A DNA stretch of 64,000 nucleotides from Pseudaquabacterium terrae. GTDB lineage: Bacteria > Pseudomonadota > Gammaproteobacteria > Burkholderiales > Burkholderiaceae_C. The translations under genes and the position numbers were made by a program. The notes under the pieces were generated by a model. The model did no database searches and was not told where the DNA came from. It saw only the letters and a list, made by a program, of their open reading frames with translations. Positions 7,060 through 62,429 of this stretch are shown here, one piece after another. Location of the stretch: contig NZ_JABRWJ010000001.1 in assembly GCF_013266755.1 (NCBI RefSeq), positions 868,001-932,000 on the forward strand. The letters run 5' to 3'. How positions within the stretch are numbered: position 1 is the first letter of the stretch; every line of letters starts with the position of its first letter.

Positions 7060-7701
7060 TCAGACCGACGCGTCGTCCCGCACCAGCACCTCGAGGTGCT
7101 GGTGGTCGTTCCAGCCGACCAGCACGAAGCCCTGCGCCGAGTGCAGCAGCCGGTTGATCGCCGCATTGCCGAGCTGCCAGGTGCGCGGCGCCTGCAGCTC
7201 GATGCGCGTGGCGGCGCGGTACAGGCAGTCGAGCACGCCGCCGTGGGTGACCAGCGCGATGGTCTGGCCGGCATGGCGCTCGGCCACGCGCAGCGCGGCG
7301 GCGACGCTGCGCTCGAAGAAGTCGGCCAGCCGTTCGCCGCCGGGCGGGCCGAACTGCGGATCACGCGCGCGCCAGCGCTGCGCCATCTCGGGCCAGCGCT
7401 CGCCGATCTCGTCGTAGGTGTGGCCCTCGAGCACGCCGAAGCCGCGCTCGCGCAGCGTCGCATCGGTCTCGACGGCCAGGCCGAGCGGCCCGGCCAGCGC
7501 ACGCGCGGTGTCCGCGGCGCGGCCCAGGTCGCTCGAGACCACCGTACTCAAGCCTTCATCGCGCAGCGCATCGGCCAGCAGCGCGACCTGGCGCCGGCCA
7601 CGGGCGTTCAGCGGAATGTCGAGCTGGCCCTGCAGCCGCGACTCGGCGTTCCACGCCGTCTCGCCATGGCGGATCGCGACGATGCGTGTCGCGGCGCTCA
7701 C
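7060..7701 (-). CDS. Histidine phosphatase family protein (phosphoglycerate mutase-like)
   Basis: Cytosolic branch-1 histidine phosphatase, 213 residues. The catalytic motif IRHGETAWN is at residues 9-17, the acid residue lies in ERGFGVLEG near 84-92, and the second catalytic histidine is in VTHGG near 150. The motifs fit a GpmB/CobC-like phosphatase; the substrate is not evident, and no cobalamin genes are nearby to argue for CobC. The start is GTG and sits exactly at the right-hand edge of a tandem structured repeat that separates it from the YbhB-like gene upstream. It converges on pilY1 with only 15 bases between stops. Confidence 0.85.
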   Translation of the reverse strand: MSAATRIVAIRHGETAWNAESRLQGQLDIPLNARGRRQVALLADALRDEGLSTVVSSDLGRAADTARALAGPLGLAVETDATLRERGFGVLEGHTYDEIGERWPEMAQRWRARDPQFGPPGGERLADFFERSVAAALRVAERHAGQTIALVTHGGVLDCLYRAATRIELQAPRTWQLGNAAINRLLHSAQGFVLVGWNDHQHLEVLVRDDASV

Positions 7702-7842
7702 TGCAACCCCTTGGCGCTGCGCGCCGTCCCCCGAGGGGAGCGTTCGCCCTTCGGGCGGCCGTGCGGGCTCACTGCAGCCCCTTGGCGCTGCGCGCCGTCC
7801 CCCGAGGGGAGCGTTCGCCCTTCGGGCGGCCGTGCGGGCTCA
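7698..7842 (-). repeat. Tandem pair of 71-bp TGA-bounded triple-hairpin elements
   Basis: Two direct units with period exactly 71 bases (TGA triplets on the minus strand at 7698-7700, 7769-7771 and 7840-7842); I see one mismatch between them. Each unit holds three consecutive stems with three-base loops: GGCGC-TGC-GCGCC, TCCCC-CGA-GGGGA and CGCCC-TTC-GGGCG (read on the plus strand). The left-hand TGA is the stop codon of the YbhB-like gene, and the right-hand one overlaps the GTG start of the phosphatase gene. The same unit recurs near 41.1 kb, with a shortened copy near 61.65 kb and a diverged one near 16.3 kb. Confidence 0.9.
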
Positions 7843-39406: not shown

Positions 39407-41068
39407 TCAGCTCAACCGCCACACCCCGCCGACCTCGACCGTCGCTGCCCCGTCCCCCTGCAGCTTCAGCAGATGCGCCCGCAGCGAGCGCAGCGCGACG
39501 CCGTGCAGGTGCTTCGGCGTATCGGCATACACCGCATCGCGCAGCGCTTCCTCGCCCGCCGGGCCGATCGCGCGCAGCGCGTCGAGCACCTTGGCCTCGC
39601 GCTGCAGGCGGTGCGCGATCAGCTTGCGCACGGCCGCATGCGGCTCGTCGATCAGGAAGCCGTGGCCGGGCGCCAGCCACTCGAGGTCCTCGTCGAGCAG
39701 CCGGCGCAGCGAAGCGAGGTAGACGGCCATGTCGCCGTCGGGCGGATTGATGACCACCGTCGAGCCCTGCATGATGTGGTCGCCGGTGAAGAGCAGCTTC
39801 TCCTGCTCCAGCAGGTAGCACAGGTGGTTGCTGGCATGGCCGGGCGTGTGGATCACCCGCAGCGTCGTGTCGGGGCCGAGTTGCAGCCGGTCGCCATCGG
39901 ACAGCACATGCTCGGGCTGGAAGCTCGGGTCCTGCCACTCGGGATACGCGGCCACGCGGCCGAAGCGCGGCGCGCCGAAATGCGCCTGCAGCGCGGCGAT
40001 CGCCGGTGAATGGTCCTTGTGGGTGTGCGTGGCCAGCAGCCGCGTGACGCGCCCCGGCGCGGCGGCGATCAGCGCGCGCACGTGCTCGGCATCATCAGGA
40101 CCGCCGTCGAGCAAGGCCCAGTCGTCGGCGCCCGGCGTGCCTAGAAAGTAGCTGTTGGTGCCCGGGCCGGTCATCATGCTGCCGTTCGGTGCCGTAACGC
40201 GCAAGATACGCGGCGACAGCCACACCGGCACACCGGGCGCGAGCTCGGTGCTGACGTCGCCGCGGCCTTCGGCATCGAGCCGGCCGATCTCGGCGAAGGC
40301 CCAGGCGCCGGGCATCACCGGGCGCTTGCCCTCGGGCGTCAGCCCGAGGCGCGGCCGGATCAGCGGCTTGTGCGTCTCGGCGCGCGCGGCATCGATCGCC
40401 GCGGCGGCGCTCGAAAAGCGCGCCAGCGCCTGCAGCGTCACCCGCGTCACGTTGACCAGCTTCAGCCCGCGCGCCGCATCGAGCGCCTCGGCCGGCGTCA
40501 GCCACAGCAGCTCGACGGTCTCGTGCGCGTCGTGGCGCGCGGTCTGCGCCGGCGGCGCCGTGGTGATGAAGAAGCGCGTGTCGAAGACCTTCGGCATGCC
40601 CTGGGGCGTCATCCAGTGGCTGTGGTAGGTCAGCGGCGCGAGGTGAATGCGCACGCCCAGCCGCTGGCACAGCTCGGCCATGCCGCAGCGGTTGCCGTGC
40701 AGGTCCTGGCGCAGCGCCATCAGCGCATCGGCGTCCTGCGCATCGAGCGCGATCGGCTGCCCGTCGGCGCCGCTCGCGAACAACAGCCCGGCTTCCTCGA
40801 AACACTCGCGCACCGCGGCGATCCAGTAGTTCAGGCCGTTGGCCGGCAGGCCGAGCCGGCGGCTGGCCTCGGCATCGTCGAGACCGTCGCACAGGCCGTA
40901 GGCATCGGCGTCGCCGCTGTCGAGCAGGCCGCCGGGGAACACCGCGGCGCCGCTGTTCTGGTCGCCGGGCTTGTCTGCGCGGCGCAGCATCAGCACTTCC
41001 ATGCCCCGCGGCGCATCGCGCAGCACGATCAGTGAGGCCGCGGCGCGGGGCGTGACCGGCGCGTTCAT
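39407..41068 (-). CDS. Nudix hydrolase fused to metallo-beta-lactamase-fold hydrolase
   Basis: Two-domain hydrolase, 553 residues. The N-terminal Nudix domain (about 8-240) has AAVFPGGLLDSGD and, after an insertion, AAVRECFEEAGLLF (about 88-101), the split Nudix box of the NUDT19/RDD-like group that cleaves CoA derivatives. The C-terminal MBL domain (about 290-520) has the HTHKDHSP metal motif, HTPGHASNH, TGDHIMQG and LAPGHG, like LACTB2-type enzymes. A CoA-linked function suits the neighbouring CaiB/BaiF gene. The ATG immediately follows a 71-bp structured element whose other end is the CaiB stop, so the two genes form one unit. Confidence 0.88.
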   Translation of the reverse strand: MNAPVTPRAAASLIVLRDAPRGMEVLMLRRADKPGDQNSGAAVFPGGLLDSGDADAYGLCDGLDDAEASRRLGLPANGLNYWIAAVRECFEEAGLLFASGADGQPIALDAQDADALMALRQDLHGNRCGMAELCQRLGVRIHLAPLTYHSHWMTPQGMPKVFDTRFFITTAPPAQTARHDAHETVELLWLTPAEALDAARGLKLVNVTRVTLQALARFSSAAAAIDAARAETHKPLIRPRLGLTPEGKRPVMPGAWAFAEIGRLDAEGRGDVSTELAPGVPVWLSPRILRVTAPNGSMMTGPGTNSYFLGTPGADDWALLDGGPDDAEHVRALIAAAPGRVTRLLATHTHKDHSPAIAALQAHFGAPRFGRVAAYPEWQDPSFQPEHVLSDGDRLQLGPDTTLRVIHTPGHASNHLCYLLEQEKLLFTGDHIMQGSTVVINPPDGDMAVYLASLRRLLDEDLEWLAPGHGFLIDEPHAAVRKLIAHRLQREAKVLDALRAIGPAGEEALRDAVYADTPKHLHGVALRSLRAHLLKLQGDGAATVEVGGVWRLS

Positions 41069-41138
41069 GTGGCCCCCTTGGCGCTGCGCGCCTTCCCCCC
41101 GAGGGGGAATTCGCCCTTCGGGCGGCCGTGCGGGCTCA
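41065..41138 (-). repeat. 71-bp TGA-bounded triple-hairpin element at a gene junction
   Basis: TGA triplets on the minus strand lie exactly 71 bases apart (41065-41067 and 41136-41138), the same period as the tandem copies near 7.7 kb. Stems read GGCGC-TGC-GCGCC (41080-41092), TTCCCCC-CGA-GGGGGAA (41093-41109) and CGCCC-TTC-GGGCG (41112-41124). The middle stem is two pairs longer than in the 7.7-kb copies, with both arms changed together. The right-hand TGA is the CaiB stop codon, and the left-hand TGA belongs to the ATGA start of the Nudix-MBL gene. Confidence 0.9.
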
Positions 41139-61046: not shown

Positions 61047-62429
61047 CTATGGTTTGTGGATCAGCGCGTAGAAGAAGCCGTCACCGCTTGTTTCAGAGGC
61101 GAATCCGGGCCGTGGGGCATTGTCCGGCAGCCCCGGCAGATGACCGGGTGAGGCGGGGTCGAGCCAGGGTTTGTCGGCCGCGTGGCGTTGCAAAAAAGCG
61201 TCGATCTGCTGCTGGCCCTCGAGCCGGAACACCGAACACGTGGCGTACAGCAGCCGGCCACCCGGTGCCAGCAGCGGCCACAGCGCATCGAGCAGCTCGG
61301 CCTGGATGCGCGACAGCGCGACGACGTCATCGGGCCGGCGCAGCCAGCGTACGTCGGGATGGCGGCGCACGATGCCCGACGCGGTGCACGGCGCATCGAG
61401 CAGGATCGCGTCGAAGGGCCGGCCGTCCCACCAGCGCGCCGGCTCGCGCGCATCGGCCACCTGCAAGTGCGCCTTCAGCTGCAGCCGGTTCAGCGTCTCC
61501 TGCACGCGGGTCAGCCGCAGCGGGTCGCTGTCGAGCGCCAGCAGGTCGACGTCGGCCAGCTCGAGCAGCTGCGCGGTCTTGCCGCCGGGCGCGGCGCAGG
61601 CGTCGAGCACGCGGGCGCGAGCAGTCACTGGGACACCTTCGGGCTGCGCCCTCAGGTATTCGCCCTTGGGGCGGCCCGGCGGGCTCAGCCGATCGGCGCC
61701 GGCACCCAGCAGCAGCGGGCCGGCGCGCTGCGCCGACAGGTCCTGCACCGAGACCTCGCCCTCGGCGAAGCCGGGCAGCTCGGTCACCGGCAGCGGCTTG
61801 TCGAGCAGCACCGCCTGCTCGCCGATCGCCTGCGCGCCGCGGCCCTGGGCGGCCAGGCGCTGCACATAGGCCGCGGCCGTGCCGCGCCGCGCGTTGACGC
61901 GCAGCACCATCGGCGGATGTTTGTTCGCCGCGCCCAGCAGCGCCTGCCAGTGCTGCGGCCAGTCCTGCTTGATGCGCTCGATCCACCACAGCGGATGGTT
62001 GAACGCGGCGATCGGCTGCGGCTGCACCGCGGCCACCAGCGCGTCGCGCTCGCGCACGAAACGGCGCAGCACCGCATTGACGAAGTTCGCCGCCGCCGGC
62101 GTGCGCTGGCGCGCCGCGCCGACCGCCTGGTCGACCAGCGTGTGCTCGGCATACGGCGGCTCGCTGCCCGGCCACAGCAGCGCGATCGCCGAGCACAGCA
62201 GCGCATCGACGTTGGCCGGCGGGGCCTTCGGCGCCATCAGCGCGCGCACCGCCTGCGCACCACCCCACCAGCGCAGCACGTGGAAGGACAGCGCCTGCGT
62301 GCCGGGCTTCAACTCGACCGGGCAGCGCGCCAGCACCTCGGTCAACGAGCGGCCGCTGCGCACCGCGGCCACCGCGTCGGCGGTCTGGTCGAGCAAGCGC
62401 GCGAGCGGGGGCGAGGGGGCGGTGGCCAT
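61047..62429 (-). CDS. rsmB: 16S rRNA (cytosine-5) methyltransferase RsmB with an in-frame repeat insertion
   Basis: RNA m5C methyltransferase, 460 residues: an N-terminal NusB-like helical domain (about 1-150; ANFVNAVLRRFVRERDAL) and the methyltransferase core (about 230-460). SAM loop motif is DACAAPGGKT; DAPCTASGIVRRHPD supplies one Cys and YATCSVF the catalytic Cys. Before the SAM motif a Pro/Gly-rich block (RLSPPGRPKGEYLRAQPEG, about 248-266) is not typical of the family. It is encoded by a shortened copy of the structured repeat, 60 bases between TGA triplets, so the frame is kept. ATG is chosen at MATAPSPPLARLLDQ. It is divergent from folE with 57 bases between. Confidence 0.92.
   Translation of the reverse strand: MATAPSPPLARLLDQTADAVAAVRSGRSLTEVLARCPVELKPGTQALSFHVLRWWGGAQAVRALMAPKAPPANVDALLCSAIALLWPGSEPPYAEHTLVDQAVGAARQRTPAAANFVNAVLRRFVRERDALVAAVQPQPIAAFNHPLWWIERIKQDWPQHWQALLGAANKHPPMVLRVNARRGTAAAYVQRLAAQGRGAQAIGEQAVLLDKPLPVTELPGFAEGEVSVQDLSAQRAGPLLLGAGADRLSPPGRPKGEYLRAQPEGVPVTARARVLDACAAPGGKTAQLLELADVDLLALDSDPLRLTRVQETLNRLQLKAHLQVADAREPARWWDGRPFDAILLDAPCTASGIVRRHPDVRWLRRPDDVVALSRIQAELLDALWPLLAPGGRLLYATCSVFRLEGQQQIDAFLQRHAADKPWLDPASPGHLPGLPDNAPRPGFASETSGDGFFYALIHKP
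61626..61688 (-). repeat. 60-bp copy of the structured repeat inside rsmB
   Basis: Minus-strand TGA triplets at 61626-61628 and 61686-61688 bound a 60-base unit reading TGAGCCCG at one end and CAGTGA at the other, as in the 71-bp copies. One hairpin is intact, CGCCC-TTG-GGGCG (61662-61674), while the other two are eroded. It contributes 20 codons to RsmB, and removing it at TGA would leave the reading frame unchanged. Confidence 0.8.

Follow-up and report, generated by a model that had tools for sequence, protein, structure and literature searches.

The rsmB gene of Pseudaquabacterium terrae lies within a 64,000-nucleotide stretch of DNA that was analysed as a whole (hereafter, the window), and its open reading frame contains a short palindromic sequence that recurs elsewhere in the chromosome. 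This raises the questions of what the sequence is, where such sequences usually reside, and how a conserved RNA methyltransferase could have taken one up. The gene and the features of its insert, in window coordinates, are as follows.

61047 to 62429, minus strand: rsmB, encoding the 16S rRNA m5C967 methyltransferase, 460 amino acids; NF008149 and Pfam Methyltr_RsmB-F; frame open through the insert.
61625 to 61687, minus strand: 60-bp repeat unit plus a second TGA, in frame in rsmB, adding 20 codons.
61662 to 61684, minus strand: hairpin 1 (unit positions 4-26), directly after the left TGA; compensatory changes in the repeat family.
61635 to 61657, minus strand: hairpin 2 (unit positions 31-53); compensatory changes in the repeat family.
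61636 to 61640, minus strand: GAAGG, Shine-Dalgarno-like, 7 nt upstream of the right-end GTG; read from the sequence, with AAGG at the same spacing in 69 of 78 60-bp units.
61626 to 61628, minus strand: right-end GTG, in the reading frame of the RsmB catalytic part; read from the sequence.

In profile searches, the protein scored 477.9 bits against NF008149 (cut-off 375) and 266.0 bits against the other RsmB model, TIGR00563, slightly below its cut-off of 269.05. The insert consists of two TGA triplets separated by 57 nt, which amounts to 63 nt with both TGAs included and to a unit of 60 bp. As a first-pass annotation had proposed, both TGAs share one out-of-frame register and the rsmB frame stays open, gaining the 20 residues LSPPGRPKGEYLRAQPEGVP, followed by valine (GTG), without a frameshift. 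The repeat reported by that annotation is therefore real, although its coordinates (61626 to 61688) were off by one base. When RsmB was aligned with chain 1sqf, labelled "SUN protein" and presumably E. coli RsmB, the insert fell within an unaligned gap (query residues 235-273) just before motif I, in agreement with its earlier placement in a loop immediately ahead of the SAM-binding motif. The catalytic motifs were still present by eye. Since the insert lies in a tolerant loop and these motifs are retained, the insert-bearing RsmB is probably active. The right-end GTG is a possible internal start.

A match to RsmB was found in all 60 genomes searched, the P. terrae genome among them. The orthologous loci of 29 relatives were taken for alignment, and the loop was readable in 27. 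The repeat element and its peptide were absent from the RsmB loop of all 27 readable relatives, in which 27-37 residues separate VQD from the motif-I cysteine, as compared with 50 in P. terrae RsmB. In the nearest relative (genome G003; 90% RsmB identity) this distance was 30 residues, exactly 20 fewer, in an alignment where the orthologues have diverged and the original TGA target is not directly visible. As far as can be seen among these relatives, the rsmB insertion appears to be lineage-specific. The observation that the first-pass annotation had named as refuting its reading, a peptide shared by orthologues, was made in 0 of the 27 readable loops.

A 76-bp stretch from the rsmB copy matched 13 other places in the same genome by BLAST (E 4.5e-8 or better), which bears out the earlier suggestion of a palindromic element matching other chromosomal copies at the DNA level. 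A pattern of the left half of the element, allowing up to 2 mismatches, gave 24 matches in this genome with the rsmB copy included, as compared with 0 for a reversed-pattern control. A covariance model gave 99 matches at E up to 0.01, although its E-values are rough and many of the weaker matches span the first hairpin only. An Rfam scan of the 64-kb window returned a tRNA and nothing else. Further copies of the element lie within the window.

7698 to 7842, minus strand: two tandem 71-bp copies of a sister class, with one TGA in common.
41065 to 41138, minus strand: 71-bp copy at a stop/start junction; the corresponding junction in G003 is a plain, element-free ATGA overlap.

In all, 173 distinct copies were collected by way of the left half of the element: 23 from the P. 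terrae genome, 102 from genomes of the same bacterial family, and 48 from a contig scan with the 60-bp pattern. The commonest unit length in this set was 60 bp, with 71 bp as the next clear class, and units of 59, 62, 74 and 75 bp also occurred in the repeat family. In the P. terrae genome alone, 15 of 23 copies were of the 60-bp type. The rsmB copy had been described as a shortened element; because 60 bp is the commonest unit, in a set of which 48 copies came from the 60-bp pattern, its derivation by shortening of a 71-bp element is rejected. Members of a 62-bp subfamily had the outer stem of hairpin 1 altered on both sides (GCGC...GCGC; L093 1078-1204, L152 1946-2010 and L199 1622-1686). Separately, loci L038-L053 of the P. 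terrae genome contained longer palindromes that have the core CCGCCGGGCCGCCCCAAGG in common but differ in their flanks, and these may belong to a separate repeat family.

By pattern search, the element was found in 35 of 299 genomes of the family, and in 0 of 226 genomes of the same class outside it, which were searched with the stricter pattern only. The covariance model was applied to the P. terrae genome, to 120 family genomes and to 15 genomes of the genus Bordetella. Of the 120 family genomes, 102 had a match with an E-value no higher than 0.001, and in 59 the best E was 1e-10 or lower; matches were also found in 8 of the 15 Bordetella-genus genomes. Relatives in the Bordetella genus measured 71, 74 or 75 bp at 7 of 9 loci, the other two giving no such value; among loci L328-L348 of this genus, several relatives of these lengths were seen at ATGA junctions.

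Two hairpins were defined within the unit. Hairpin 1 pairs positions 4-7 with 23-26 and 11-13 with 18-20, and hairpin 2 pairs positions 31-33 with 51-53 and 37-40 with 44-47. In an alignment of 28 rows, chosen by hand for diversity and not randomly, 34 cells were altered on both sides and still paired, as compared with 0-9 when the partners were slid. Pairing was also examined in 89 distinct units whose selection did not involve hairpin 2's inner stem (108 copies, 106 distinct, 89 kept). This set omits one batch of loci, the 71-bp type, and any copy not in register at positions 32-33. In these, pair 38-46 was T-A in 48 units, G-C in 32, C-G in 6 and other in 3, and pair 11-20 was G-C in 68, C-G in 20 and other in 1. 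The paired changes alter the encoded peptide (S/R, H/P), and therefore pairing is kept above residues. The predicted folds were not exceptionally stable (z -1.12 for the rsmB copy, and -1.17 and -1.80), and the minimum-energy folds were partly unlike the covarying pairs.

The position of the copies relative to genes, a feature absent from the first-pass annotation, was biased. Of the 173 copies, 142 had A before the left TGA, 25 had G, 5 had C and 1 had T, giving ATGA or GTGA in 167. ATGA was present at 71 of 89 element sites, as compared with 99 of the 580 gene ends in those loci that terminate in TGA and lack an element (Fisher p 1e-31). At position -2, C was present at 76 of 89 element sites, as compared with 48 of 94 element-free RTGA overlaps (Fisher p 7e-7). 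The consensus site before the element is thus C-[A/G]-TGA, and TGA stands at both element ends. With gene frames called from base composition and not by a gene finder, the left flank could be scored in 170 of the 173 copies; the upstream coding frame ended at the left TGA in 95, the other two forward frames accounted for 11 each, and 53 had no forward call.

At the right end, AAGG, 7 nt and RTG(A) followed one another in 69 of 78 60-bp units. After omission of 22 copies with another copy after them and 23 of unclear frame, 128 of the 173 copies remained in which the right-hand start could be scored. In 94 of these the right RTG(A) shared the frame of the downstream gene, in 13 another start was present, and 21 had none. 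Comparison of these sites shows that the usual place of the element, as judged from the called frames, is a start codon, commonly the ATGA or GTGA overlap of a gene stop and the next start. Overlapping ATGA gene pairs are a known setting for termination-reinitiation (PMC6728339). The junction occupied by the copy at 41065-41138 provides an empty site, the plain ATGA overlap of G003; more distant relatives align poorly there. In two cases, apparently the same junction carried different element classes in different genera (L184 in G246 and L005 in P. terrae; L244 in G182 and L118), which would fit either a hotspot or an old insertion followed by class exchange.

The anatomy of the right end raises the question of whether the element has been selected as a translation module, with stop, hairpins, Shine-Dalgarno sequence and start acting jointly to tune or preserve coupled expression, and is not merely tolerated. 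In rsmB, such a module would permit internal initiation at the GTG, and the catalytic domain would be made on its own as well as within full-length RsmB. In its favour, besides the AAGG spacing, the unit lengths of the copies with an in-frame right start were 0, 2 and 1 modulo 3 in 54, 35 and 5 cases, such that the frame opened by the left ATG either merges with that of the downstream gene, as it does in the 60-bp class, or ends at the right TGA. When the 71- and 74-bp copies were set aside, lengths of 2 modulo 3 still exceeded those of 1 modulo 3 by 18 to 5 (p 0.01), and the 71-, 74- and 75-bp units of the Bordetella genus obey the same length rule. However, related copies are not independent events, one-base deletions may outnumber insertions, and the right-hand start has been lost in several copies. 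The length bias is suggestive only, and we regard selection for a translational role as a minority possibility. The same doubt applies to its fuller form, in which a mobile repeat suited to stop/start overlaps, bringing with it a stop, a ribosome-binding site and a start, would act as a portable translation junction: lengths of 60, 71, 62 and 75 would keep the left ATG in the downstream frame or ending at the downstream start, coupling would survive insertion, and the internal GTG in rsmB would give a free RsmB methyltransferase domain. This, too, we put forward only tentatively.

Copies were also found in frame within other genes. The screen covered only copies flanked on each side by about 240 bases. 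It missed one copy, in a penicillin-binding protein gene, which was found by hand, and the resulting count of seven genes is therefore a lower bound. Three of these genes, encoding RsmB, a beta-galactosidase and the penicillin-binding protein, are in the P. terrae genome, and the insertions involve several frames and both orientations. In the GH2 beta-galactosidase (L034; G000:C5:63745-63867), two tandem units read in the third frame add 40 residues and correspond to a gap against 4ypj. In the penicillin-binding protein (L014 650-3016; G000:C53:277190-277252), an antisense copy lies in frame between the transglycosylase and transpeptidase domains. A catalase of G003 (L215) carries an antisense in-frame copy that corresponds to a gap against 1sy7. 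Genome G316 has two such genes, at loci L099 and L237: a histidine kinase, whose HisKA match covers 86 residues over 66 positions, and an SNF2-type protein, recognised from base composition and open frame only. An MFS transporter of G253 (L149) has an in-frame copy that is absent in nine aligned relatives, in which the linker is variable. At this MFS site (L149 and L150), one genome has a single unit and another has at least 3 in tandem, its contig ending within the array. Over the 600 bp upstream the two agree at 99% identity, and we interpret the difference in unit number as a coding copy-number polymorphism. The element may also be translated at its usual site: in some copies the right-hand start has been lost and the reading frame of the downstream gene extends without interruption from the left ATG across the element, as in an ABC transporter (L026), a PAS histidine kinase with two units (L116) and a ring-hydroxylating beta subunit (L226).

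These insertions bear on whether the rsmB insert might be a regular loop of the protein, or a peptide motif that has been conserved, with no inserted element involved. The peptide MSPPGRPKGEYRSAQHEGTP and its variants do recur at many gene starts, as a motif would. However, the peptide is absent from RsmB orthologues, the same DNA gives other peptides when read in other frames and antisense within genes, and the pairing changes alter residues. A simple peptide motif is ruled out by the other-frame and antisense insertions, and the broader reading as a protein loop is so improbable that we give it almost no weight. Because different frames yield different peptides, the unit of insertion is DNA and not peptide.

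Three observations support mobility of the element: the empty site in G003, the change in tandem number at the MFS site, and one nested copy at L098. In the last of these (1440-1570; G025), one copy was seen by eye to lie inverted inside another, splitting it. The short CRTGA site preference, the two subterminal hairpins and the tandem units with a TGA in common would suit a nonautonomous relative of IS200/IS605-type or REP/RAYT elements, one that a Y1 transposase places on the 3' side of a short, fixed target. However, the Y1 family PF01797 was absent in 7 of 13 carriers tested, the P. terrae genome included; the hairpins of the element were found near 0 of 18 Y1 loci; and the consensus contains neither a GTAG nor a CGTC tag. 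PF01797 was above cut-off in 3 of 4 non-carriers. We consider such kinship unlikely, at perhaps one chance in a few. As a present-day mobiliser, RAYT/Y1 was rejected on presence alone, given the carriers that lack PF01797 and the Y1 loci that lack the hairpins, and no mobilising enzyme was found.

Collectively, the explanation that we favour, and hold to be probable as a whole, is that the element is a dispersed, non-autonomous, two-hairpin DNA repeat, spread across the sampled bacterial family and located at CRTGA starts, and that the rsmB copy is a tolerated in-frame survivor. Comparison of the sites shows that, at the usual place of the element after C-[A/G]-TGA, the left TGA still terminates the upstream gene, and the right end offers AAGG, a 7-nt spacing and then R+TG, from which the downstream gene can start. 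Because the upstream stop is kept and a downstream Shine-Dalgarno sequence and start are supplied, insertion at a stop/start overlap may be nearly neutral. Units that are 3n long and free of stops could also survive within genes, and the rsmB copy, 60 bp long and adding 20 residues in a tolerant loop, would be such a survivor. As a first guess, movement might occur by single-strand insertion by a hairpin-recognising enzyme acting in trans, perhaps since lost.

The closest described system is the Betaproteobacterial repeat element (BRE) of Bordetella and other Betaproteobacteria, with a full length of 75-91 bp in Bordetella, tandem arrays of varying copy number, overlap of open reading frame ends by a few bases, and certain copies that lie wholly inside coding sequences (PMC3110155, Hot et al. 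2011). The present repeat resembles it in its Betaproteobacterial hosts, tandem arrays, position at open reading frame ends and occasional intragenic copies. Since relatives of 71, 74 and 75 bp were picked up by the covariance model in the Bordetella genus (8 of 15 genomes), where they are likely the published BRE itself, the two are likely to be kin, and BRE is probably the longer class of one superfamily, a comparison made by description and not by letters. That the present repeat is BRE and nothing more has, in our judgement, an even chance. It may be set apart from BRE, again by description, by its unit of 60 bp in rsmB (also 59, 62, 71, 74 and 75 elsewhere) against 75-91 bp, and by the junction anatomy, target, Shine-Dalgarno sequence and start, and in-frame peptides, which do not appear in the BRE description within the excerpted text of PMC3110155. 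The earlier remark that such an element was not known to have been reported is accordingly only partly upheld: a repeat of this kind is probably in print as BRE, some copies of which lie within coding sequences, whereas literature searches returned no account of the arrangement of stop, Shine-Dalgarno sequence and start, of the preference for CRTGA, or of in-frame insertions read in multiple frames, nor any paper with the peptide letters of the element.

Tagged REP elements provide a second comparison. GTAG REP ends often give flanking open reading frames a TAG stop, and some REPs lie within open reading frames (PMC3733652). The present repeat shares with GTAG/CGTC-tagged REP/RAYT elements the short imperfect palindromes and the supply of stop codons to flanking frames. 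It differs in its TGA at both ends and right-hand Shine-Dalgarno sequence and start, as well as in its lack of either tag and of a consistent association with Y1 genes, as described above. An IS200/IS605-derived nonautonomous element would have a short fixed target, terminal hairpins and an autonomous relative with matching ends; a CRTGA preference and hairpins were seen here, and the 18 Y1 loci included no autonomous relative.

The home of the element at stop/start overlaps, together with its 3n length, offers a reason for its survival. Its copies provide natural experiments on translational coupling and on the uptake of mobile DNA by proteins, and they matter for annotation, in which they appear as 20-residue extensions at gene starts and as doubtful start sites. 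A precedent for such uptake is the Rickettsia palindromic element (RPE), a group of small palindromic repeats of 105-146 bp that occur between genes as well as within genes for conserved proteins, where the frame is kept (PMC2229807). The likeness lies in the in-frame insertion into conserved protein genes, here those for RsmB, catalase, beta-galactosidase, histidine kinase and an MFS transporter. The RPE differs in length from the 60-bp unit and in its Rickettsia hosts from the present Burkholderiales carriers, and the TGA ends, the usual place at stop/start overlaps and the built-in Shine-Dalgarno sequence and start are features of the present repeat. RPE is the functional parallel, and the present repeat provides a case outside Rickettsia of a small palindromic repeat whose in-frame entry into conserved proteins has recurred, in several reading frames and in both orientations.
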